Assembly: GCF_030323025.1 (NCBI RefSeq)
Contig: NZ_CP097329.1
Location: 713,001 to 777,000 of the forward strand
Direction: 5' to 3'
From: Pseudanabaena mucicola str. Chao 1806
GTDB taxonomy: Bacteria; Cyanobacteriota; Cyanobacteriia; Pseudanabaenales; Pseudanabaenaceae
Length of the DNA stretch: 64,000 bases
Shown here: positions 23,671 to 55,379 of the stretch, one piece after another
Layout of the letters: each line of letters begins with the position of its first letter
Numbering within the stretch: the first letter of the stretch is position 1
Notes under the pieces: generated by a model
The model's database searches: none
Told to the model about the DNA's origin: nothing
The model's input: only the letters and a program-made list of their open reading frames with translations
Translations under genes and position numbers: made by a program

Positions 23671-24252
23671 TTATACAAAAACACAAGGTTTAGTTAATGC
23701 TTTTTGTAAGAGATTTTGATAACTTTGATCATCAATTTCATAGGCTCCAAATCTCGCTAAATGGGGGTTCATTAACTGAGCATCAAATAAACTATAACCT
23801 CGCGATCGCAAATGCTCTACCAACTTCACCATTGCCACCTTTGAGCCTTCGGGAATTTTAAAAAACATCGACTCACCAATAAATACACCACGAATAGCGA
23901 TCCCCAGAATTCCACCTGCTAATTTGTCACCTTGCCATGTCTCAAAACTATGCGCCCAACCTGCTTGATGCAAATTAAAATACAGTGTTCGTAGTTCGTT
24001 GGAGATCCATGTTGTTTCGCGATCGGCACAGCCTTCTACAACTTGCTCAAATGCGCTATCAATCCTAACTTCAAATCGATTTTGATTGATTGCACGCTGC
24101 AAAGATTTGGGATAGCGAAAGTGATCGTCAAGTGGGATCAAGGTGCGTTCATTAGTGTAGTACCACTCAATCGGCTGCCCATCACCTTCGGACATCAAAA
24201 AATAGCCTTGGCTATAACCGTCAATAATGCTGCGGATGTCAAACCTTTCCAC
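23671..24252 (-). CDS. aat: leucyl/phenylalanyl-tRNA--protein transferase
   Basis: A 193-residue protein that transfers Leu or Phe from tRNA to proteins with N-terminal Lys or Arg, making N-degrons for ClpS/ClpAP. Family blocks are [19 protein letters not shown] near the start, [16 protein letters not shown], the [25 protein letters not shown] core, GESMFF and [15 protein letters not shown]. The usual length for cyanobacteria. It lies 35 bases upstream of the kinase gene on the same strand, so the two may be cotranscribed. Confidence 0.92.
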
Positions 24253-24447
24253 AAATAGATTTCCAACTCACTAGTAGAGAACTTAGTTTTGTAATCTATT
24301 TTAAAGTCTCTTCATAAATTGAAATACTTTTTCATTTAGTTTTAGTCTTTTAAATCAGATAGTTAAATGAAAAATCATTCAGTAATTAAACTTGTTTAGC
24401 TTTAAAAAACTGAAAATTTTGAAATACATAAACAGACTAAAATGATA

Positions 24448-24640
24448 AATGGTTTGCTCTCTTTAAGTATAAATACTTATATCAAGCAAACCATCTATGC
24501 ATAAGAGTTATTATTAAATTGGGTATTAAAATTCAGAATCTTTAAATAAGCCGATTCCGTTTGAATGTTTATATTCTGCAAGATATTGATAAAAAACTGG
24601 GATCGCTTAATATTTTCTTTATAATTTAACTCAAAAATCT
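24448..24640 (-). ncRNA. candidate structured non-coding element, copy 1
   Basis: The element has a stem of ten bases (ATGGTTTGCT, about 24448, with AGCAAACCAT, about 24485). After a spacer comes a block containing ATTCAGAATC, CCGATTCCGTTT, TATTCTG and GATCGCTTAATA-TTTCTTTA. A diverged copy lies 340 bases downstream with the same order. No ORF fits. Read on the minus strand the hairpin would be terminal and followed by a T-rich run, like an intrinsic terminator; the strand is inferred from this only. Confidence 0.4.
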
Positions 24641-24789
24641 AGCCTAAGTTGAATTACTCATCTCAAAAGTCTTGATCTCTGTGGATCCCCGTATTTCTAC
24701 TCATAAAGATTGGCTTTTACAGCTAAGAAGCATAAATTAAAGAAGTAAATTATCACACAAAATGAAAATTTAAAGAGGCAACATAAAAT

Positions 24790-24985
24790 AAGTGGCTCTT
24801 AAAAGGTAGGTAGAAATTACCATTGACCTTTTAAAAACCACTCTCTTTTCTAGTAGTTTATTAAGTTTGTATTTAAATTCAGAGCCTATATATAAGCTGG
24901 CTCCGTTTTAATGATCATATTCTGATAGAAAATTTGCCACTTTTGAGATCGCTTAATACTTTCTTTACAGTCAAACTTAGGAAAC
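24790..24985 (-). ncRNA. candidate structured non-coding element, copy 2
   Basis: Same architecture as copy 1. A different stem (AGTGG..TTAAAAGGT with ACCTTTTAA..CCACT) occupies the same position. It is followed by ATTCAGAGCC, GCTGGCTCCGTTTT, TATTCTG and GATCGCTTAATACTTTCTTTA. The conserved block plus a hairpin whose sequence changed while pairing stayed suggests an RNA. The rest of the 1.1-kb gap (24253-25345) is AT-rich with nothing else I recognise. Confidence 0.4.
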
Positions 24986-25330
24986 AATATAGTGAGTATT
25001 TATACTTATACAGCATATTTCTTTTAAATGTATTTTTGATAATGTTTAATAAGAAAATATGTTAGTTGTTGCTTAGTTTTTTTCAAGACTTTAAATTAAT
25101 TTAATAAATTTTAAATTATTAACTTCAATATAAATTTATTGCCTTTTGTAATGATATGTATCGTCTACTTAACATAATTTTTAGAGGTACATCTCACTTG
25201 GCTGTGCTTCTAAAATTTATTTACCAAAATATTGTGACAGGTACGGAAACACACACTCTTTAGTAAGGTAGAACCGATCCCCCCTAAAAATCTAGACAGA
25301 CTAATATATTTACAGTTGTCTAAATGCCAC

Positions 25331-25337
25331 AGGAGGT
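25331..25337 (+). promoter_or_regulatory. strong ribosome-binding site of clpB
   Basis: AGGAGGT, a full anti-Shine-Dalgarno match, eight bases before the ATG at 25346. It confirms that start; most genes in this window have much weaker sites. Confidence 0.8.
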
Positions 25338-25345
25338 AACTCGCG

Positions 25346-27964
25346 ATGCAACCAACTAATCCTAATCAATTTACTGAAAAAGCATGGGCGGCAATCGCAA
25401 GGACACCCGACGTGGTGAAAGCAGCCCAACAGCAACAAATTGAGCCAGAGCATTTACTCAAATCCTTGCTAGAGGAAGAGGGGCTAGCATCTAGCATTTT
25501 CAGTAAAGCGGGGATCAATATTCATCGTTTGCGCGATCGCATCGATGAGTTTATTAATCGGCAGCCCAAAGTCTCTAGCTCCAATACATCAGTGTACTTA
25601 GGCAAAAATTTAGATGTATTGCTAGATCATGCCGAAAAGGAACGTAAAAGTTTTGGCGATGATTTTATTTCCATTGAGCATATCCTCTTGGCTTACTGCA
25701 AAGATGATCGCTTCGGTAAGCCTCTCTATCGAGAAATGGGGCTTGATGAAGCAAAGCTTCGTAACATTATTCAGCAAGTGCGCGGTAGTCAAAAAGTGAG
25801 TGATCAAAACCCCGAAAACAAGTACGAGGCTTTAACTAAATATGGTCGAGATCTGACGGAATTAGCCCGTGCAGGTAAGCTTGATCCCGTTATTGGTCGT
25901 GATGATGAAATTCGCCGCACGATCCAGATTTTGTCACGCCGCACTAAGAATAATCCTGTCTTAATTGGTGAACCTGGTGTAGGTAAAACGGCGATCGCTG
26001 AGGGTTTAGCCCAACGCATTCTTAGTGGTGATGTGCCTGAGTCTCTGAAAGATCGCAAGCTAATTGCCTTGGATATGGGTGGCTTGATTGCAGGGGCAAA
26101 ATATCGGGGTGAATTTGAGGAACGTCTCAAAGCGGTTCTCAAGGAAGTTATGGACTCAAACGGGCATATCATTCTATTTATTGATGAAATTCATACGGTT
26201 GTTGGTGCAGGTGCGACCCAAGGCGCGATGGATGCAGGTAACTTACTCAAGCCAATGTTAGCAAGAGGTGAGTTGCGTTGTATTGGCGCGACAACCTTGG
26301 ATGAATATCGAAAATATATCGAAAAAGATGCTGCCCTTGAACGTCGGTTCCAGCAAGTTTATGTCGATCAGCCCAATGTCGAAGATACGATCTCGATCTT
26401 GCGGGGATTGCGCGATCGCTACGAATTGCATCATGGCGTAAAGATTTCCGACACAGCACTAGTTGCTGCTGCTACCCTGTCTAATCGCTATATTAGTGAT
26501 CGCTTCCTACCAGATAAAGCGATCGATCTCGTTGATGAGTCGGCAGCGAAATTAAAAATGGAAATCACCTCTCAGCCTGAGGCTCTTGATGAAATTAATC
26601 GGAAGGTGATTCAGCTAGAGATGGAATGCCTCTCTCTCAAAAAAGAAACTGATCGCGAGTCCCTAGATCGTCTCGAAAAATTAAATAAAGAATTGGGTGA
26701 TCTCAAGCAAGAGCAAACAACTCTCAAAGCCCAATGGGAAGCAGAGAAACAGGTAATTGATAATATTCGCAAACTCAAGGAAGATATTGATCATGTCAAT
26801 GTCGAAATTCAGCAAGCAGAGCGCAATTACGACCTGAATAAGGCGGCGGAGTTGAAGTATGGCAAATTAACTGATTTGCAACGTCAGTTAGAAATTGCCG
26901 AGGTCAACCTCGATGAAGCCAAAACTTCAGGGCGCTCTCTCTTACGTCAAGAGGTAATGGAAGAAGACATTGCCGAAATCATTTCTAAATGGTCAGGTAT
27001 TCCCGTTAGTAAGTTAGTGGAATCGGAAAAAGAAAAGCTCTTGCAATTGGAAGATGTACTGCATGATCGCGTAGTTGGTCAAGAGGAAGCGGTTACAGCG
27101 ATCGCCGATGCCATTCAAAGATCCAGAGCAGGACTCGCCGATCCTAATCGTCCGATTGCTAGCTTTATTTTCCTTGGTCCTACAGGTGTCGGCAAAACGG
27201 AACTTGCTAAAGCTCTAGCAGCCTATCTCTTTGATACTGAAGATTCGATGGTGCGGATTGATATGTCCGAATATATGGAGAAGCATAGTGTTTCCCGCCT
27301 AGTCGGCGCACCTCCTGGCTATGTTGGCTATGAAGAAGGCGGACAACTGACTGAAGCCGTGCGTCGTCGTCCCTATGCTGTGATTCTCTTTGATGAAATC
27401 GAGAAAGCACATCCCGATGTCTTTAACATCATGCTACAAATCCTTGATGATGGTCGCGTTACCGATTCTCAAGGTCGCACCGTTGACTTTAAGAATTCGA
27501 TTATCATCATGACCAGCAACGTTGGTTCGCAATATATTCTCGATATTGCAGGAGATGATTCTCGCCATGAAGAAATGCGGGCAAGGGTAATGGAATCGAT
27601 GCAAGCCAGTTTCCGTCCTGAATTCCTCAACCGTATCGATGAAATTGTGATCTTCCACGCTCTCCGCCGTGAACAATTGCGCCGTATCGTCAAGCTCCAA
27701 GTCCAGCGTTTAGAAAAACGTTTAGCAGATCGCCGCATGACTTTAAAACTAGCGGAAGCCGCTCTTGATTTCATAGCTGAAGTTGGCTATGACCCTGTGT
27801 ACGGAGCACGTCCACTCAAACGCATCATTCAGCGTCAGTTAGAAACCCAAATTGCTAAAGGAATTTTGCGTGGTGATTTCTCTGACGGTGACACTATTTT
27901 TGTGGATATCGAAAATGAGCGTCTCGCCTTTAAGCGGCTTCACTCAGGTTTAATCACTGTCTAA
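25346..27964 (+). CDS. clpB: ClpB disaggregase chaperone
   Basis: The 872-residue Hsp100 protein carries an N-domain (two Clp-N repeats, residues 1-145) and AAA1 with Walker [10 protein letters not shown] and Walker [12 protein letters not shown] coiled-coil middle domain covers about residues 405-525, and AAA2 has GPTGVGKTE and [12 protein letters not shown]. The pore tyrosine blocks [11 protein letters not shown] and GYVGYEEGG are present. With DnaK it pulls aggregated proteins apart after heat stress. The middle domain separates it from ClpC. Preceded by a long AT-rich region with two candidate RNAs; followed by a terminator. Confidence 0.96.
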
Positions 27965-28462: not shown

Positions 28463-29034
28463 GACTATCCTCTAAGAGGATAGCAATTCGATTGAGCGCA
28501 GGTTTCCAGTCACGAATAGAGCCTCGTTTACTTCTTCGAGATATTCCACAATGCCAAGTGAACTAATTTGAAAGCAGCCTCATCGGAAGGAAAAATCTGT
28601 TGAGATTTAATCACTTTTCGCAAACTGCTATCCATCGACTCAATCGCATTAGTGGTAAGTAGCTAGACATAAGTAAACTAAAAACCGAGAGTTTTGTTCC
28701 GCCCGCTATGCGGGCGGAACAAAACTCTGGTTTGGGTTTTAATTAAGTTGAGCTACTTATAAATCGCCCTACGAATCTCGGACGGGAAAGCAAAGAATGG
28801 GATAATGTTCGCCCAATGACTGCGCCAAGACTTAGAGATCGACGGATATTGTTTGTCCCATTTTTCAGCAAAGAGTTCGAGATTAAACTCTGCTTCTGAT
28901 TCGGTCGCAGCAGCATAAATTGCCTTGAGATCATCACAAACTTGCTTGCATTGTTGCCATGGCACAAAAGCGACCGAATTTCTGAGCATGTGGACAATGC
29001 ATAACTGTACCTGAGTTTTTAGAAATTCAGTCGA
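28463..29034 (-). pseudogene. IS256-family transposase remnant (C-terminal part)
   Basis: Minus-strand sequence corresponding to residues from about [10 protein letters not shown] to the C-terminus of the intact copy next door, with many substitutions and stops. It is interrupted by a 100-bp MITE at 28658-28757 and cut at 29034 by the terminal repeat of the complete IS256 copy. It is an older element into which newer ones have landed. Confidence 0.85.
28658..28757. mobile_element. MITE family 1, copy A (100 bp, TA target)
   Basis: The ends AGTAGCT...AGCTACT are flanked by TA on both sides. Removing the element and one TA restores the IS256 coding sequence. It has a central hairpin GTTTTGTTCCGCCCGC/GCGGGCGGAACAAAAC. 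Confidence 0.9.
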
Positions 29035-30357
29035 GACTGTCAAGCAAAGTGTGTAAAGTCTAGAAGCTAGAGATGGAGCCGATCCTCGAAGAGGATCGCA
29101 AAGCGATTGAGAGCAGGTTTCCAATCGCGAATGGGCATAGTCCATTTCTTAGAAATATTCCGCATAGCCAAGTAAACCAGCTTGAAAGCAGCCTCATCGG
29201 TCGGAAAAATCTGCTGAGACTTAATCACCTTCCGCAAACTGCTATTCATCGACTCAATCGCATTAGTCGTATAAATTGCTTTGCGAATCTCAAGAGGAAA
29301 CGCAAAGAAGGGGATAATGTTCGCCCAATGACTGCGCCAAGATTTGGAGATCGAGGGATATAGTTTGTCCCATTTTTCAGCAAAGAGTTCAAGGTTAAAC
29401 TCCGCCTCCGATTCCGTCGTCGCCGCATAAATCGCCTTGAGGTCGGCACAAACCTGCTTACGCTGTTGCCAAGGTACAAAAGCAACCGAGTTTCTGACCA
29501 TGTGGACAATGCACAACTGCACCTGCGTTTTAGGAAATACCGTTTCGATAGCATTGGGAAAACCAGTCAAACCGTCAACGCAAGCAATCAAAATATCTTT
29601 GACCCCACGGTTACGAATTTCGGTGAGTACCGATAACCAGAATTTTGCACCCTCATTCGGTGAAATCCACATACCCAATAATTCCTTGTATCCGTCCATA
29701 TTCACCGCCAAGGCAAAGTACAGGGACTTGTTAATCACCCTGCCATTGTCTCGCACTTTGATGACTAGACAGTCCAGAAATACAATTGGATAAACCGCAT
29801 CAAGGGGACGGTTTTGCCATTGTTTCACCTCATCGATCACTTCATCAGTGACATTGGAAATCAGGGTCGGTGATACCTCGACACCATACATTTCTTGCAA
29901 CTGGGACTGGATATCCCTGACACTCATCCCTCTGGCATATAGGGCAATGATCTTCTCGTCTAGTCCTGACAAGCGGCTTTGCCCTTTCTTTACCATCTGT
30001 GGTTCAAACTCGCCTTGGCGATCGCGTGGTACTGCAATTTCGGCTATGCCAAGGTCGCCTTGGACTTTTTTCTGGCTATAGCCGTTGCGACTGTTGCTTT
30101 GTCCTTCTGGTCTGGATTCGTGCTTCTTGTACCCTAGATGCGTTGATAATTCTGCTTCTAATGCTCGTTCCACCAGTGCGGTGGTTAGTTGTTTCAGGAT
30201 TCCTCCTTCTCCGAATAGGTCGGGTGGTGTTTTACATTCTTGCAGCAATTCATCTAGCAATTCTTTGCGGATATTCATCGGTTTTATTGTTGGTAATTGT
30301 GTGTCTTGATCATCTCTCTATATATATCCCAGACTTTACACACTTTAATTTACACTC
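29035..30357 (-). mobile_element. IS256-family insertion sequence, complete
   Basis: The ends are imperfect 27-bp inverted repeats (outer GACTGTCAAGC... at 29035 and ...TTTACACTC ending 30357, sharing AGACTTTACACACTTT). One intact transposase gene lies inside. No target duplication is visible: the left flank is a decayed IS256 copy and the right flank the 3' end of a relE-type gene. This suggests the element moved by, or was followed by, recombination or deletion. Confidence 0.85.
29067..30278 (-). CDS. IS256-family transposase
   Basis: A 403-residue DDE transposase with the family's typical [12 protein letters not shown] start, the [10 protein letters not shown] block, a conserved [22 protein letters not shown] helix-turn-helix region, catalytic aspartates in [15 protein letters not shown] and [11 protein letters not shown], and the glutamate in [14 protein letters not shown]. 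Full length with no stops, so probably functional. The related remnants at 28463-29034 and 51651-52591 share its sequence but are broken. Confidence 0.93.
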
Positions 30358-30360
30358 TCT

Positions 30361-30397
30361 TTTGCATCGTAAAGATATTTACAAGTTTTTTCCATAA
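30361..30397 (+). pseudogene. 3' end of a RelE/ParE-type toxin gene
   Basis: The last 11 codons plus stop read LHRKDIYKFFP, identical at the protein level to the C-terminus of the toxin gene at 33249-33515, and run into the same repeat unit. The rest of the gene is replaced by the right end of the IS256 element. Confidence 0.85.
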
Positions 30398-30540
30398 ACC
30401 CGATCACCTATTCCCTCATCAAACAGCGATCGTTCCTCACCACCCAAAACCTGATCGCCTATTTCCCCACATCAAACAGCGATCGCACCTCACACACACA
30501 AACCCGATCGCCTATTCCGTCAAATGAAACAGCGATCGCC
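30393..30540 (+). repeat. HIP1-type tandem array 1 (about 3 units)
   Basis: Unit core: AACCCGATCGCCTATTCC then CATCAAACAGCGATCGCC, period about 50 bases. It begins at the stop of the relE remnant and ends just upstream of the nuclease gene. Confidence 0.85.
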
Positions 30541-30610
30541 ATTTACTAAGATTCAATGCAATTGTTCAGATGTTAAGATAGAAAATATTGCTAATTTTAA
30601 AGAGGTCAAG

Positions 30611-31246
30611 ATGGTTACACTGGCCGCAAAAAATTTAAATTTTGAAGATGTACATCATCTGTTAGGCTTTCACGAGTCTGGAGAGATGGGTATTTTTTCT
30701 GATTATCTTGATCTAGAATCTATTTCTGATTTTGAGCAAACAGAACTAACTGAGATTTGTACTAATTTTCGTCGATACCTTCTATCAGGTAGAGTTTCCG
30801 AAGGGCAAATTAAGTTTCTTGCGCTTGCACCTCTAATGAATTTGACAGGTTACTATAATCAAGCGATCGAGTTACTTTTAGAAGAAAACATTCAGCGTAT
30901 TGACATTCTCGAAGCGGATACTAGCATTACAGGTAGATATGATATTTTGGCAGTTAAAAAATCTGGAGTTCCAAATTTAACCAAGCTTTGGGTGCTGATA
31001 GTTGAAGCAAAGAGAGCAGGGATTGAACCTTTTACAGGGATTCCGCAATTATTAACTTATGCTCATGAGTCTTTGCAGTCTCAGTCTTCAGTTTGGGGTT
31101 TAGCAACAAATGGTTTGCATTTTCAGTTTATCCGCATCTTTGCAGGAGAATCACCAAGCTATCAGCTATTTCCTTCTCTATCGTTGATCGAATCTGAGCC
31201 TTCTATACAGATTCTTAAAGTTCTTAAAGCTATTTGTAAATCATAG
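30611..31246 (+). CDS. PD-(D/E)XK nuclease-like protein, type I restriction R-subunit N-terminal type
   Basis: The ATG at 30611 has AGAGG nine bases upstream and gives 211 residues; an earlier in-frame ATG at 30524 lies inside the tandem repeat and is unlikely. The motif series TGRYDILAVKK...LWVLIVEAKRAG gives the D...ExK pair of the nuclease core, with GIPQLLTYA following. Small stand-alone proteins of this type are common in cyanobacteria and are annotated as restriction subunit R although no methylase or helicase accompanies them. Helicase motifs are absent here. It sits alone between two tandem arrays, like a cassette. Function unknown; nuclease activity is inferred. Confidence 0.7.
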   Translation: MVTLAAKNLNFEDVHHLLGFHESGEMGIFSDYLDLESISDFEQTELTEICTNFRRYLLSGRVSEGQIKFLALAPLMNLTGYYNQAIELLLEENIQRIDILEADTSITGRYDILAVKKSGVPNLTKLWVLIVEAKRAGIEPFTGIPQLLTYAHESLQSQSSVWGLATNGLHFQFIRIFAGESPSYQLFPSLSLIESEPSIQILKVLKAICKS

Positions 31247-31249
31247 GAG

Positions 31250-31437
31250 TTGCATAGCGATCGCCCCTCATCTCCCATAAACCCCGATCTCCTATTCCCT
31301 CAAATCAAATAGCGATCGCCCCTCATCTCCCACAAAACCCGATCGCCTATTCCCCACATCAAACAGCGATCGCATCCTCAAAACCCAATACCCGATCGCC
31401 TATTCCCCACATCAAACAGCGATCGCCCCTCAATCTC
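31250..31437 (+). repeat. HIP1-type tandem array 2 (about 3.5 units)
   Basis: Same unit as array 1 in the same orientation (CCCGATCGCCTATTCCCCAC, ATCAAACAGCGATCGCCCCT). It fills the gap between the nuclease gene and the DUF433 antitoxin gene. Confidence 0.88.
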
Positions 31438-31492
31438 TAAATTCTTGTAAGGACGCTGTTATTATGAAATTAGTTATGTGCAAATCTTGGTT

Positions 31493-31732
31493 ATGAAAAA
31501 ATATCGTGATCGCATATGCATCAGTCCGAATATTCGTAGTGGTAAGCCATGTATAGTTAATACACGCATTGCAGTATCAGATGTGTTTGACTATCTAGGC
31601 GGTGGGATGACTGTTGACGAAGTATTAGATGATTTTCCTGATTTAACTCTTGCGGATATACAGGCTTGTTTTGCGTTTGCTGCCGATCGTGATCGCCGTT
31701 TAACAGTTGTTCCCTATGAAGCTGCTGTTTGA
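31493..31732 (+). CDS. DUF433-family antitoxin
   Basis: A 79-residue protein, MKKYRDRICISPNIRSGKPC to the C-terminal VVPYEAAV. It has the DUF433 core ISPNIRSGKPCIVNTRIAV and a helical DVFDYLGGGMTVDEVLDDFPDLT region, a winged-helix-like DNA-binding antitoxin. An upstream GTG at 31478 is possible, but the ATG at 31493 is the common family start. Its end overlaps the start of a PIN-like toxin by 17 bases, the usual antitoxin-first arrangement. It should repress its own promoter and neutralise the toxin. Confidence 0.85.
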   Translation: MKKYRDRICISPNIRSGKPCIVNTRIAVSDVFDYLGGGMTVDEVLDDFPDLTLADIQACFAFAADRDRRLTVVPYEAAV

Positions 31733-32051
31733 TGAGAATTTATCTCCAAAGTTGCCGCGTATATTATCTGTAGATTTTCCAGATAGTATGCATGTTCGTG
31801 ATTGCGGATTGAAGGGATTTCCCGATGAAGATGTTTGGGAGTATGCTCGAAACAATGGATTTACAATAGTTTCCAAGGATTCAGATTTTTATCAACGGAG
31901 TTTGCTTTATGGGCATCCGCCGAAGCTTGTCTGGTTGAGAATTGGCAATTGTAATCGTGATATTTTGGTAGCACTAATCACTAAACATAAGGAACAAATT
32001 TATTTGCTAGACAGCAATCCATCTGAGTCGATATTAGTAATTTTAAGTTGA
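31716..32051 (+). CDS. DUF5615 PIN-like toxin
   Basis: A 111-residue protein starting MKLLFDENLSPKLPRIL. The opening FDEN acid pair, the VRDCGLKGFPDEDVWEYA block and the VSKDSDFYQRSL block carry the acidic residues of PIN-like nucleases (DUF5615, Mut7-C related). It probably cleaves RNA when not bound by the DUF433 protein that overlaps it upstream. The alternative start at 31707 is a TTG and is less likely. Confidence 0.85.
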   Translation: MKLLFDENLSPKLPRILSVDFPDSMHVRDCGLKGFPDEDVWEYARNNGFTIVSKDSDFYQRSLLYGHPPKLVWLRIGNCNRDILVALITKHKEQIYLLDSNPSESILVILS

Positions 32052-32059
32052 ATCGCACC

Positions 32060-32247
32060 TACATAAAGATCAAACAATGATCGCCAATCACCACCCATAA
32101 ACGTGATCGCCTATTCCTCAAATCAAACAGCGATCGCCCCTCACCACCCACAAAGCCCGATCTCCTAAATCTCAACATCAACAAACGATCGCCCCTTCAC
32201 CACCCATAAAACCCAATCCCCTATGTCCACATCAAACAGCGATGTCA
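32060..32247 (+). repeat. HIP1-type tandem array 3 (about 3.5 units)
   Basis: Degenerate copies of the same unit, same orientation, filling the gap between the DUF5615 toxin and brnT. Several units have lost the second GATCGCC. Confidence 0.8.
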
Positions 32248-32333
32248 CACCAAAAAGCTAAAAGTGGTTGTAAAATTTAAATGTCTCCAAGCAGTTGTAA
32301 ATTGTCGATTAAAATGCTTATGGTTTATATGAT

Positions 32334-32612
32334 ATGAGTACCACTTTCGAGTGGGATGAGCAAAAAGAGGCTGATAACAAGGCAAAGCATGGCTTAGATT
32401 TTGAAACTGCTCAATATGCTTTTTTCGATCCAGACCGTTTGATTGTTCATGATTCGGAACATAGTGAGTTAGAGGAACGTTGGTTTTGTATCGGTAAAGC
32501 AGATGATCTTGTATTGACAGTGCGTTTTACTTATCGAGATGGAGTGATTCGGATATTTGGGGCTGCTCAATGGCGTAAATGGAGGAAGTTTTATGAACAA
32601 CACAATTCCTGA
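32334..32612 (+). CDS. brnT: BrnT-family toxin
   Basis: A 92-residue RelE-fold ribonuclease toxin. The family start FEWDEQKEADNKAKHGLDFE is followed by a DPDRLIVHDSEHSELEERW acidic block and a C-terminal RIFGAAQWRKWRKFYEQ. It is the first gene of the brnTA order (toxin before antitoxin) and overlaps brnA by 20 bases. It should arrest translation by RNA cleavage when free. Confidence 0.9.
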   Translation: MSTTFEWDEQKEADNKAKHGLDFETAQYAFFDPDRLIVHDSEHSELEERWFCIGKADDLVLTVRFTYRDGVIRIFGAAQWRKWRKFYEQHNS

Positions 32613-32826
32613 TCCTGCTGAACCAATTGGTAATGTCACTATTGTCGAAGATTTTTTGCCTCCAGTGAATCAGTTAGTTCCAAGGCAAAAAACGGTAACT
32701 GTTACGATGGAATTTACTCAAGAAAGTATTGAGTTTTTTAAGCGCGAGGCTAAACGTCGTAATTCTTCATATCAAGAGATGATTTCCAATCTTGTGGATG
32801 CTTATGCAAAACAGGGTAAGGTGTGA
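32593..32826 (+). CDS. brnA: BrnA-family antitoxin
   Basis: From the ATG at 32593, with GGAGGA at 32581-32586, the product has 77 residues. The C-terminal half (TVTVTMEFTQESIEFFKREAKRRNSSYQEMISNLVDAYAK) is a ribbon-helix-helix domain expected to bind DNA and the BrnT toxin. The longer reading from 32557 would lie within brnT and lacks a ribosome site. Confidence 0.85.
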   Translation: MNNTIPDPAEPIGNVTIVEDFLPPVNQLVPRQKTVTVTMEFTQESIEFFKREAKRRNSSYQEMISNLVDAYAKQGKV

Positions 32827-32837
32827 ATAATTGAGCG

Positions 32838-32973
32838 CGATCGCCCCCCACAAAACCCGATCGCCTAAATCTCAAATCAAACAGCGATCGCCCCTTCACC
32901 AGCCACAACCCCGATCGCCTATTTCCCGCATCAAACAGCGATCGCCCCTCTCCACCCATAAACCTGATCGCCT
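32838..32973 (+). repeat. HIP1-type tandem array 4 (about 2.5 units)
   Basis: Same unit and orientation as the other arrays. It starts 11 bases after the brnA stop and runs to the promoter region of the next toxin-antitoxin pair. Confidence 0.85.
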
Positions 32974-33042
32974 ATACTTGTCTGGCTTCATTTGAGTTAG
33001 AATTAGGAAATGTAGACTTGTTTTATGATTTAGAGATTAAAT

Positions 33043-33252
33043 ATGCAAGTATTCCTTAATGATGAAAAGACTAGAGAAATGCTAACTGAAGTCTTGATTG
33101 ATTTGATTAGGACAAGAAAAGAGCTTTTTGCAGAAATATTTCGAGATGCTTTGGAAGAGGTTGGTTTAGCTAATGCGATCACAGAGGGTAGAAAAAATGA
33201 GTTTGTTTCTGAAGAGACGATCTTTACTATTCTTGATGGTGATGTTGCATGA
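33043..33252 (+). CDS. small antitoxin paired with RelE-type toxin
   Basis: A 69-residue acidic helical protein (LTEVLIDLIRTRKELFAEIFRDALEEVGLANAI, then a flexible C-terminal EETIFTILDGDVA). Its ATGA overlap with the downstream RelE-type toxin identifies it as the antitoxin. Similar short proteins precede relE genes in many cyanobacteria, but no named DNA-binding fold is obvious. Confidence 0.75.
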   Translation: MQVFLNDEKTREMLTEVLIDLIRTRKELFAEIFRDALEEVGLANAITEGRKNEFVSEETIFTILDGDVA

Positions 33253-33515
33253 ATGTTAAGTTTGAGTCTAGGTTTGAGAAGGATTTGAAGTTAGTCAAGG
33301 ATCGCAATCTATTAACAAGGTTGAAACAAATAATTTTGACCTGTAAGCAGTCTGAATCTTTGGGGGAAATCAATAATCTAAAAAAGATGCAGGGATATGA
33401 AAGTTTCTATCGTATTCGTTTGGGTGATTACAGGTTAGGGATAGAAGTTTTTGAAAATGAAATAATCTTTGTCAGATTTTTGCATCGTAAAGATATTTAC
33501 AAGTTTTTCCCATAA
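33249..33515 (+). CDS. RelE/ParE-family toxin
   Basis: An 88-residue RelE-fold protein. It has FESRFEKDLKLVKDRNLLTRL at the N-terminus, a KMQGYESFYRIRLGDYRLGIEV core and the terminal VRFLHRKDIYKFFP, the C-terminal HRxDxY being the mRNA-interferase signature. Start overlaps the antitoxin stop. The last codons and stop (CCCATAA) are the first bases of the adjoining tandem repeat unit. A second copy of this gene's 3' end survives at 30361-30397. Confidence 0.9.
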   Translation: MNVKFESRFEKDLKLVKDRNLLTRLKQIILTCKQSESLGEINNLKKMQGYESFYRIRLGDYRLGIEVFENEIIFVRFLHRKDIYKFFP

Positions 33516-33964
33516 ACCCGATCGCCTATTTCCCACATCAAACAGCGATCGCCCCTAATCACTCAAAAACCCGATCGCCTATTCCCTCAACTCAAACAAC
33601 GATCGCCCCTCACTACCCACAAAACCCGATCGCCTTTTTCCACATCAAACAGCGATCGCACCCTCAACACCCACAAAAAACGATCGCCTTTTCCCCACAT
33701 TAAACAGCGATCGCCCCCCACAAAACCCGATCGCCTAAATCTCAAATCAAACAGTGATCGTCCTCCTCAACACCCATAAACCCGATCGCCTATTTCCCAC
33801 ATCAAACAGCGATCGCCCCTCATCACCCGCAAACCTGATTGCCTATTTCCACATCAAACAGCGATCGCCTATCACCACCACAAACCCGATCGCCTATCCC
33901 CTCAAATCAAATAGCGATCGCCCCTTTCATCACCCACATAACCTGATTGCCTATTTTCCAAACA
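33511..33964 (+). repeat. HIP1-type tandem array 5 (about 8.5 units)
   Basis: The longest array. Units of 47-56 bases each carry CCGATCGCC, a TATT(T/C)CC-CACATCAAACA linker, AGCGATCGCC and a CCCTCA-CACCC tail. Both halves recur in every unit, so there are no unique spacers as in CRISPR. It separates the RelE pair from the RecQ-PRTase gene; the last ~110 bases before 34074 are ordinary AT-rich leader. Confidence 0.9.
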
Positions 33965-53666: not shown

Positions 53667-55379
53667 TTAGAACAAGAAATATCGCTGTGCCATTGGCAAT
53701 ACTGATGCAGGCTCACAGGTCAGTAATTCGCCATCAGCACGAACTTCATAGGTTTCTGGATCTACTTCCATCACTGGCAAAGCATCATTGAGCTTTAGGT
53801 CACGTTTGCTAATATTCCGAGTTCCTTTAACCGTGAGTACTTGCTTTTTCAAGCCTAGTTGATTAGGAATATCTCTCGCCATCGCTGCTTGAGAAATAAA
53901 GGTAAAGGATGTGGTTGCGATCGCGCCGCCATAACTGCCAAACATCGGACGCATATAGACGGGTTGCGGTGTGGGAATACTAGCATTGGCATCACCCATC
54001 TGTGACCATGCAATAAATCCTCCTTTCAACACCATTTCGGGCTTGACTCCAAAAAATGCAGGATGCCAGAGAACAAGATCGGCGATTTTGCCAACTTCAA
54101 TGGAACCAACATATTCAGAAATCCCGTGGGTGATCGCAGGATTAATCGTGTATTTTGCTACATAGCGCTGAGCGCGAAAATTGTCAGCTCTCGTGGTTTC
54201 AGGACTCACTAGCACTCCTCGCTGTACCTTCATTTTATGAGCAGTCTGCCAAGTGCGGATAATTACTTCGCCAACCCTTCCCATTGCTTGTGAATCGGAG
54301 GAGAGCATACTAAATGCACCAATGTCATGGAGAATATCTTCGGCAGCGATCGTTTCGCGACGGATTCTTGATTCGGCAAAGGAGACATCCTCAGGAATGC
54401 TAGGATCGAGATGGTGACAGACCATCAGCATATCCAAGTGTTCATCGAGTGTATTTAAGGTATAGGGACGAGTGGGATTTGTGGAAGAAGGTAGCACATT
54501 CGCTTCACCGCAAATTTTAATAATGTCGGGAGCGTGACCGCCTCCTGCACCTTCGGTGTGATAGGTATGGATCACGCGATTTTTAAAAGCAGCGATCGTA
54601 TCTTCTACAAATCCTGCTTCGTTGAGCGTGTCCGTATGGATGGCAACCTGCACATCATACTCATCAGCAACACCCAAACAAGTATCAATCGTGGCAGGTG
54701 TGGTTCCCCAATCTTCATGGAGTTTTAACCCAATTACCCCAGCTTCTACTTGTTCAATTAGTCCTTCGGGCTTGCTGCTATTGCCCTTACCTGAAAAACC
54801 TATATTCATCGGAAAAGCATCGGCGGATTGCAACATTCGATAAATATTCCAAGGACCAGGGGTGCAGGTGGTGGCGTTTGTACCTACAGCAGGACCAGTT
54901 CCACCACCGATCATCGTCGTGATTCCAGATGCGATCGCTACTTCAATTTGCTGTGGACAGATGAAATGGATATGGGTATCAATGCCTCCTGCGGTGAGAA
55001 TCCTGCCTTCGCCTGCAATTATTTCCGTACCAGCACCAATAATGATATTCACATTGTCCTGAATGTAAGGATTGCCTGCCTTACCGATTGCGACAATCTT
55101 GCCATCTTTAATCCCAACATCTGCCTTCACCACGCCCCACCAATCGAGAACTAAAGCATTGGTAATCGCGACATCAACGGCTCCATTGGCATTAGTAATT
55201 GGCGATTGTCCCATGCCATCACGAATCACCTTACCACCACCAAATTTCACTTCGTCACCATAGGTGGTGTAGTCACGTTCCACTTCAATAAATAATTCAG
55301 TATCAGCTAAGCGAACTTTATCACCAACGGTTGCGCCATAGGTTTCTGCGTAGGCACGGCGCGACATTCTATAACTCAT
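53667..55379 (-). CDS. ureC: urease subunit alpha
   Basis: The 570-residue catalytic subunit hydrolyses urea at a dinickel site. The metal ligands appear in GGIDTHIHF and in the GLKLHEDWG motif with the carbamylated lysine. Further ligands are in [13 protein letters not shown] and [15 protein letters not shown], and the flap [21 protein letters not shown] carries the general acid histidine. Last gene of the cluster; starts four bases after the ureB stop. The end of a family-5 repeat abuts its 3' end. Nickel insertion genes ureE, ureF and ureG are not here. Confidence 0.97.

Follow-up and report, generated by a model that had tools for sequence, protein, structure and literature searches.

Between aat and clpB of Pseudanabaena mucicola str. 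Chao 1806 lie two similar stretches of DNA. Are they RNA genes, and if so, which strand encodes them and how might they act? We studied them within a window of 64,000 nucleotides (the whole stretch of DNA that was analysed; unless noted, positions refer to it). Comparing the window with itself gave two copies of one unit, alike in order and direction, at 24506-24631 (copy A) and 24852-24977 (copy B), with a spacing of exactly 346 bp. The copies are 73% identical across 78 nt (24506-24583 versus 24852-24929) and 82% identical across 34 nt (24598-24631 versus 24944-24977). Each unit adjoins an outer hairpin, in which 24445-24470 pairs with 24473-24498 (copy A) or 24791-24807 pairs with 24826-24842 (copy B). 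A sequence-only reading had described two elements in a common order about 340 bases apart, whose end hairpins differ in sequence yet pair and which no open reading frame covers. These descriptions held up: the outer hairpins of A and B are unlike in sequence with good pairing in both, there is no ORF of at least 50 amino acids across 24260-25345, and a DNA search across the genus gave E values down to 1e-161. Downstream, in the direction of the RNA, the next gene is aat (leucyl/phenylalanyl-tRNA-protein transferase; 23671-24252, minus strand; Pfam PF03588, E = 1.6e-62), and the upstream gene is the divergent clpB (25346-27964, plus strand; AAA_2, Clp_N, and ClpB_D2-small domains). Beyond clpB, a 403-amino-acid ORF (28743-30278) resembles an IS256-type transposase, going by its sequence only, and is adjoined by a partial second copy (28753-29145); several tandem arrays with a repeat of about 54 bp, made of CGATCGCC (HIP1-like) units, lie at 30396-33960.

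The earlier reading took the conservation of shape as a sign of an RNA, and both covariation and strand-specific folding bear this out. On a MAFFT alignment, RNAalifold identified a 7-bp 5' hairpin with compensatory changes at six of its seven pairs. Across 115 distinct sequences, 99.8% of the cells in this helix pair, and 152 double changes were observed versus 45 in shuffles; if the partner is slid by one column, pairing falls to 46-52%. Because the 115-sequence alignment was fitted to the covariance model, the covariation in the MAFFT alignment is the unbiased test. The one pair that does not covary, the second of the helix, is a G-U wobble in 112 of the 115 sequences, which would be an A-C mismatch on the opposite strand. 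In the downstream hairpins, G-U pairs exceed A-C pairs by 178 to 69 if they are read on the minus strand. Folding z-scores are -5.79 (minus) versus -2.53 (plus) for copy A and -5.43 versus -1.58 for copy B. The near-invariant G-U pair, the excess of G-U over A-C, and the stronger folding of the minus strand settle, as far as sequence comparison goes, that the predicted RNA is encoded on that strand, and they rule out a plus-strand RNA. We also rejected a small peptide as the product since there is no conserved coding frame: no frame is open in both copies, and a complete ORF of at least 20 amino acids is present in just 41 of 141 transcripts.

Read 5' to 3' on the minus strand, the unit consists of a promoter block, a -10 element, the 5' hairpin (7 bp with a 12-nt loop), an AU-rich linker, and a strong putative terminator hairpin whose sequence varies. 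The predicted transcript of copy A is about 128 nt long (24440-24567), with its start placed from the -10 element and its end from the terminator. Its parts are a promoter block (TATAAAGAAAATATTAAG, 24606-24623, at about -40 to -60, with an 11-bp direct repeat), recognised by conservation; a -10 element (CAGAAT, 24573-24578), in which the A and the T are nearly invariant and the middle three bases vary; the covarying 5' hairpin (CGGAAUC-GGCUUAUUUAAA-GAUUCUG, 24534-24559); and a putative intrinsic terminator, recognised by pairing and folding (24445-24498), followed by a weak U tract. The covariance model matches copy A at 24512-24627 (E = 5e-17) and copy B at 24858-24973 (E = 3e-18), both on the minus strand. 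For copy B, the transcript is predicted in the same way and from minus-strand folding to be about 133 nt (24781-24913); the corresponding parts are the conserved promoter block TGTAAAGAAAGTATTAAG (24952-24969), the conserved -10 element CAGAAT (24919-24924), the covarying 5' hairpin CGGAGCC-AGCUUAUAUAUA-GGCUCUG (24880-24905), and the hairpin of the putative terminator (24791-24842), which is followed by UAUUUUAU. Across 144 loci, 116 have a strong hairpin within 140 nt downstream; the U tracts that follow are short, and under strict criteria a terminator scan finds none in the window. Conservation is far stronger in the stem and loop than in the linker; of the conserved parts, the loop (ARC-NN-AUAUAAA) and the AU-rich linker are the most exposed. 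In its blocks ATTCAGA and GGCTCCG, the sequence-only reading had not recognised the opposite arms of a single internal hairpin. Its TATTCTG block is the complement of the -10 element, and its GATCGCTTAATA..TTTCTTTA block lies outside the RNA because it complements the upstream promoter block.

Outside Pseudanabaena, 78 of 102 copies have an extended -10 element (TGnNAnnnT) upstream of the hairpin, as compared to 11 expected from shuffles; inside the genus the form is CAnnnT. From its position, transcription should start about 5-10 nt ahead of the hairpin. No recognisable -35 element was found. At about -40 to -60 lies an upstream block (AAATATAAAGAAAATATTAGGAAA) that is kept in 43 Pseudanabaenaceae-centred copies and in 139 anchored copies. 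The block contains an 11-bp direct repeat (AAATATAAAGA/AAATATTAGGA): its self-identity at a lag of 11 is 0.61 versus 0.41 (p = 0.0015 for lag 11; p = 0.022 when all lags are considered). Response regulators of the PhoB/OmpR family use tandem 11-bp half-sites, and we infer that the block may be a site for a regulator of this type. Elsewhere in the genome, the block pattern has 15 matches versus 10 in the control, which is no enrichment, so no regulon backs a specific activator. Upstream of the 141 copies, the NtcA box (GTAN8TAC) occurs twice (2.5 expected by chance), the Pho box does not occur beyond chance, and HLR1 occurs 38 times versus 27, which is not a clear excess. A predicted promoter of its own thus lies directly upstream of each RNA, as an independent sRNA gene should have.

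How widespread is this RNA? The earlier reading had proposed a covariance search for matching pairs in related genomes, and such pairs were found across the genus. A plain DNA search of 58 relatives located both copies or one of them in nearly all Pseudanabaena genomes, and lone copies in further genera of the family; 43 copies were then aligned. A first covariance model (R1) matched 181 of 390 genomes of the class. A second model (R2), with 116 diverse copies and a threshold of E <= 0.001, matched 225 of the 390 cyanobacterial genomes, from 115 of the 160 genera; every match listed spans the model from end to end. Among the genomes listed for this second search, the small ones of family f2 (1.7-1.9 Mb, Prochlorococcus-like in size) had no match. 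In a phylum-wide draw, the matches were only inside the class, among those listed. We also scanned GTDB species genomes with the bare hairpin pattern RGGTCAGCNNATATAAAGACCYT, which occurs in at least 116 stretches; by their titles, among the matches listed, all of these are cyanobacterial except for one short contig from a "Gracilibacteria" bin. That contig (L108, JAAUUT010000238.1; Candidatus Gracilibacteria) carries this RNA along with a cyanobacterial-type yqeG and is probably a mis-binned cyanobacterial contig. All 80 loci retrieved with the hairpin-only scan match the whole model, including the promoter block (E < 0.01 for 79 of them and 0.018 for the remaining one). Viral contigs had no match to RGGTCAGCNNATATAAAGACCYT, which describes the hairpin outside Pseudanabaena (the Pseudanabaena form falls outside the pattern), and on the absence of this non-Pseudanabaena form we ruled out a phage or mobile origin. 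Taken as predicted from sequence, the RNA family is found across most cyanobacterial lineages.

Within Pseudanabaena, copies A and B fall into two distinct clades (support 97/93 and 97/90), so that the duplication of the gene is at least as old as the genus. Its depth is inexact because two sequences from other genera fall inside the B side, on long branches. Some Pseudanabaena species have lost one copy. The P. mucicola genome has two copies: the next match to the covariance model has E = 1.5, and a candidate third copy at genome position 2429303 was rejected because the BLAST match is just 41 bp and the hairpin is missing. Many lineages have two genes per genome, and most have a single gene with a single hairpin. 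In 27 of 144 loci, mostly from Nostocales, the hairpin is instead doubled inside the RNA, with the ends of the loop and the stem kept; in these loci (L069, L073, L080, L102, and 23 more), another GGGTC..GACCC hairpin, its loop related to that of the first, lies 23-42 nt further on. Doubling of the gene and doubling of the hairpin both increase the number of hairpins.

The neighbours of the RNA vary. Outside the genus, one setting places it after yqeG (HAD phosphatase), often with proB next; in another setting, it lies after a DUF3493 gene (Low PSII accumulation 1/Rep27, LPA1) and before a convergent gene; and in L083 it lies between a divergent rubredoxin gene and sfsA. Of 93 loci outside the genus, 50 have a convergent gene after the RNA and 43 a co-directional one; of 101 such loci, 81 have a gene with the same direction before it, and this gene often stops no more than 50 bp from the promoter block. 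Comparison of these settings shows a predicted RNA that is independent of its neighbouring genes. The mixed orientation of the next gene makes a leader of one gene unlikely and a trans-acting RNA likely. A cis-acting, riboswitch-like leader or attenuator, in which the 5' hairpin senses and the terminator decides on read-through (into aat here or proB elsewhere), would account for a conserved structured domain followed by a terminator and for the 43 co-directional loci, many of them with proB. It would not account for the 50 convergent ones, nor for the unrelated genes downstream (aat, proB, sfsA); furthermore, in the window copy B precedes copy A, which has its own promoter, and the folding reveals no anti-terminator pairing as an alternative to the terminator. 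We consider a leader quite improbable. Derivation of the RNA from the 3' UTR of the upstream gene's mRNA (yqeG or LPA1) would fit the 81 loci with a co-directional gene that often ends close to the block, and is just as improbable, given that the extended -10 element and the upstream block stand between that gene and the hairpin and that the upstream gene is divergent in the window and its relatives (clpB) and in L083 (rubredoxin).

The sequence-only reading had also raised a protein-binding array. This idea survives just for the upstream block of each unit, a probable transcription-factor site, and fails for the rest. That both units are untranscribed DNA-level elements, whether a protein-binding array or a mobile repeat, is hardly credible: the block does resemble a protein-binding site, but the compensatory changes and strand-specific G-U pairs run against this account, as do the restriction to two copies per genome with no spread and the absence from viral contigs (for the non-Pseudanabaena pattern). 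The option that the reading preferred, small RNAs possibly transcribed from the minus strand and terminated by the hairpin, is the one that the comparative evidence supports. In our view, the locus very probably encodes an sRNA that has been duplicated, is transcribed independently from an activator-dependent promoter, and acts in trans.

As a trans-acting sRNA, it might work as follows. RNA polymerase would start at the -10 element without a recognisable -35 element, probably aided by an activator bound at the block about 40-60 bp upstream. The product would be about 130 nt long: a hairpin at the 5' end with a conserved, A/U-rich loop of 12 nt, then a single-stranded, AU-rich linker, and finally an intrinsic terminator. 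Since no particular neighbouring gene goes with the RNA, it would act in trans, most likely by base pairing between mRNAs and its exposed loop and linker. Having two genes in tandem could give higher dosage or split roles; after the duplication, the two copies have come to differ in stem and loop. Targets of such pairing are hard to predict from a conserved unpaired stretch that is this short and A/U-rich.

By default, an RNA of this kind would be expected to base-pair with mRNAs; the main rival to this view is protein capture. The hairpin might be a multivalent decoy that titrates an RNA-binding protein, with the effect set by the number of hairpins, and lineages would then raise that number in different ways: by two genes in Pseudanabaena and by two hairpins per RNA in Nostocales. 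The doubled hairpins with their retained stems and loop ends, the much better conservation of stem and loop than of linker, the retained G-U pair, and the two genes in many genomes are all consistent with a decoy. On the other hand, there is no known protein partner, most lineages make do with a single hairpin in a single gene, and doubled hairpins would serve base pairing equally well. We regard a decoy as possible and rather unlikely. A broader proposal, which we put forward tentatively and think doubtful, is of an ancient and near phylum-wide RNA whose unit is one hairpin (GGGUC-ARC..AUAUAAA-GACCC, with its kept G-U pair) that captures a protein, with copy number tuned by doubling either the gene or the hairpin. 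If this were true, protein capture by the hairpin would be the cyanobacteria's own CsrB-like titration system.

Besides Yfr1 and Yfr2, only a handful of sRNAs are known to be conserved across cyanobacteria. That stem, loop, and promoter are kept from Pseudanabaenaceae to Nostocales implies that this RNA must do something worth keeping. The doubling of the gene in one group versus the hairpin in another hints at which part matters, and the covariance model along with the list of named strains makes the RNA directly testable in tractable organisms.

Does the RNA belong to a known family? It has no assigned function and is absent from Rfam 15: neither at gathering nor at permissive thresholds did we find a family for it in the window or in relatives. 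Elsewhere in the window, 54942-55225 (plus strand) matches the Rfam family 5_ureB_sRNA (RF02514); because this match is antisense inside the 5' part of the gene for the urease alpha subunit (53667-55379, minus strand), it most likely reflects plain conservation of the coding sequence. In the open literature, we found no paper that names this RNA, and the supplement of a catalogue of Nostoc sRNAs (PMC4734099) may list it by coordinate. 6S RNA (RF00013) is of similar length and is also widespread in cyanobacteria, but its architecture differs; we rejected it, as the genome's only match to RF00013 is at another locus (genome positions 2441227-2441414). PsrR1, NsiR4, and IsaR1 are short, trans-acting, stress-controlled cyanobacterial RNAs with their own promoters and terminators. 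We liken our RNA to these three in its mode of working; by their description it is set apart from them, with no NtcA site and no clear excess of HLR1. PsrR1 also differs in that it maps to fabF-hoxH in Synechocystis (PMC2662882), a neighbour that was not identified around this RNA. Yfr1 and Yfr2 are short, stand-alone, structured cyanobacterial sRNAs (Axmann 2005, PMC1242208; Voss 2009, PMC2662882), Yfr2 to Yfr5 are multicopy, and yfr2 genes have been described with -10 elements (PMC1242208; PMC2662882). Our RNA is similar in being short, stand-alone, structured, and spread over cyanobacteria; the core motif of Yfr1 (CACUCCUCACACC, sought as CACUCCUCAC) and the repeated or paired GGAAACA motif of Yfr2 are each present in 0 of 141 transcripts. 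Finally, Yfr103 is a multicopy, structured RNA of 290-328 nt from marine Synechococcus and Prochlorococcus, with a conserved promoter-upstream sequence at -29 to -58 (PMC5069720). By this description it is set apart by its length (versus about 130 nt here) and its marine picocyanobacterial range, and, having likewise no assigned function, it resembles our RNA in being multicopy and structured and in its conserved upstream sequence.
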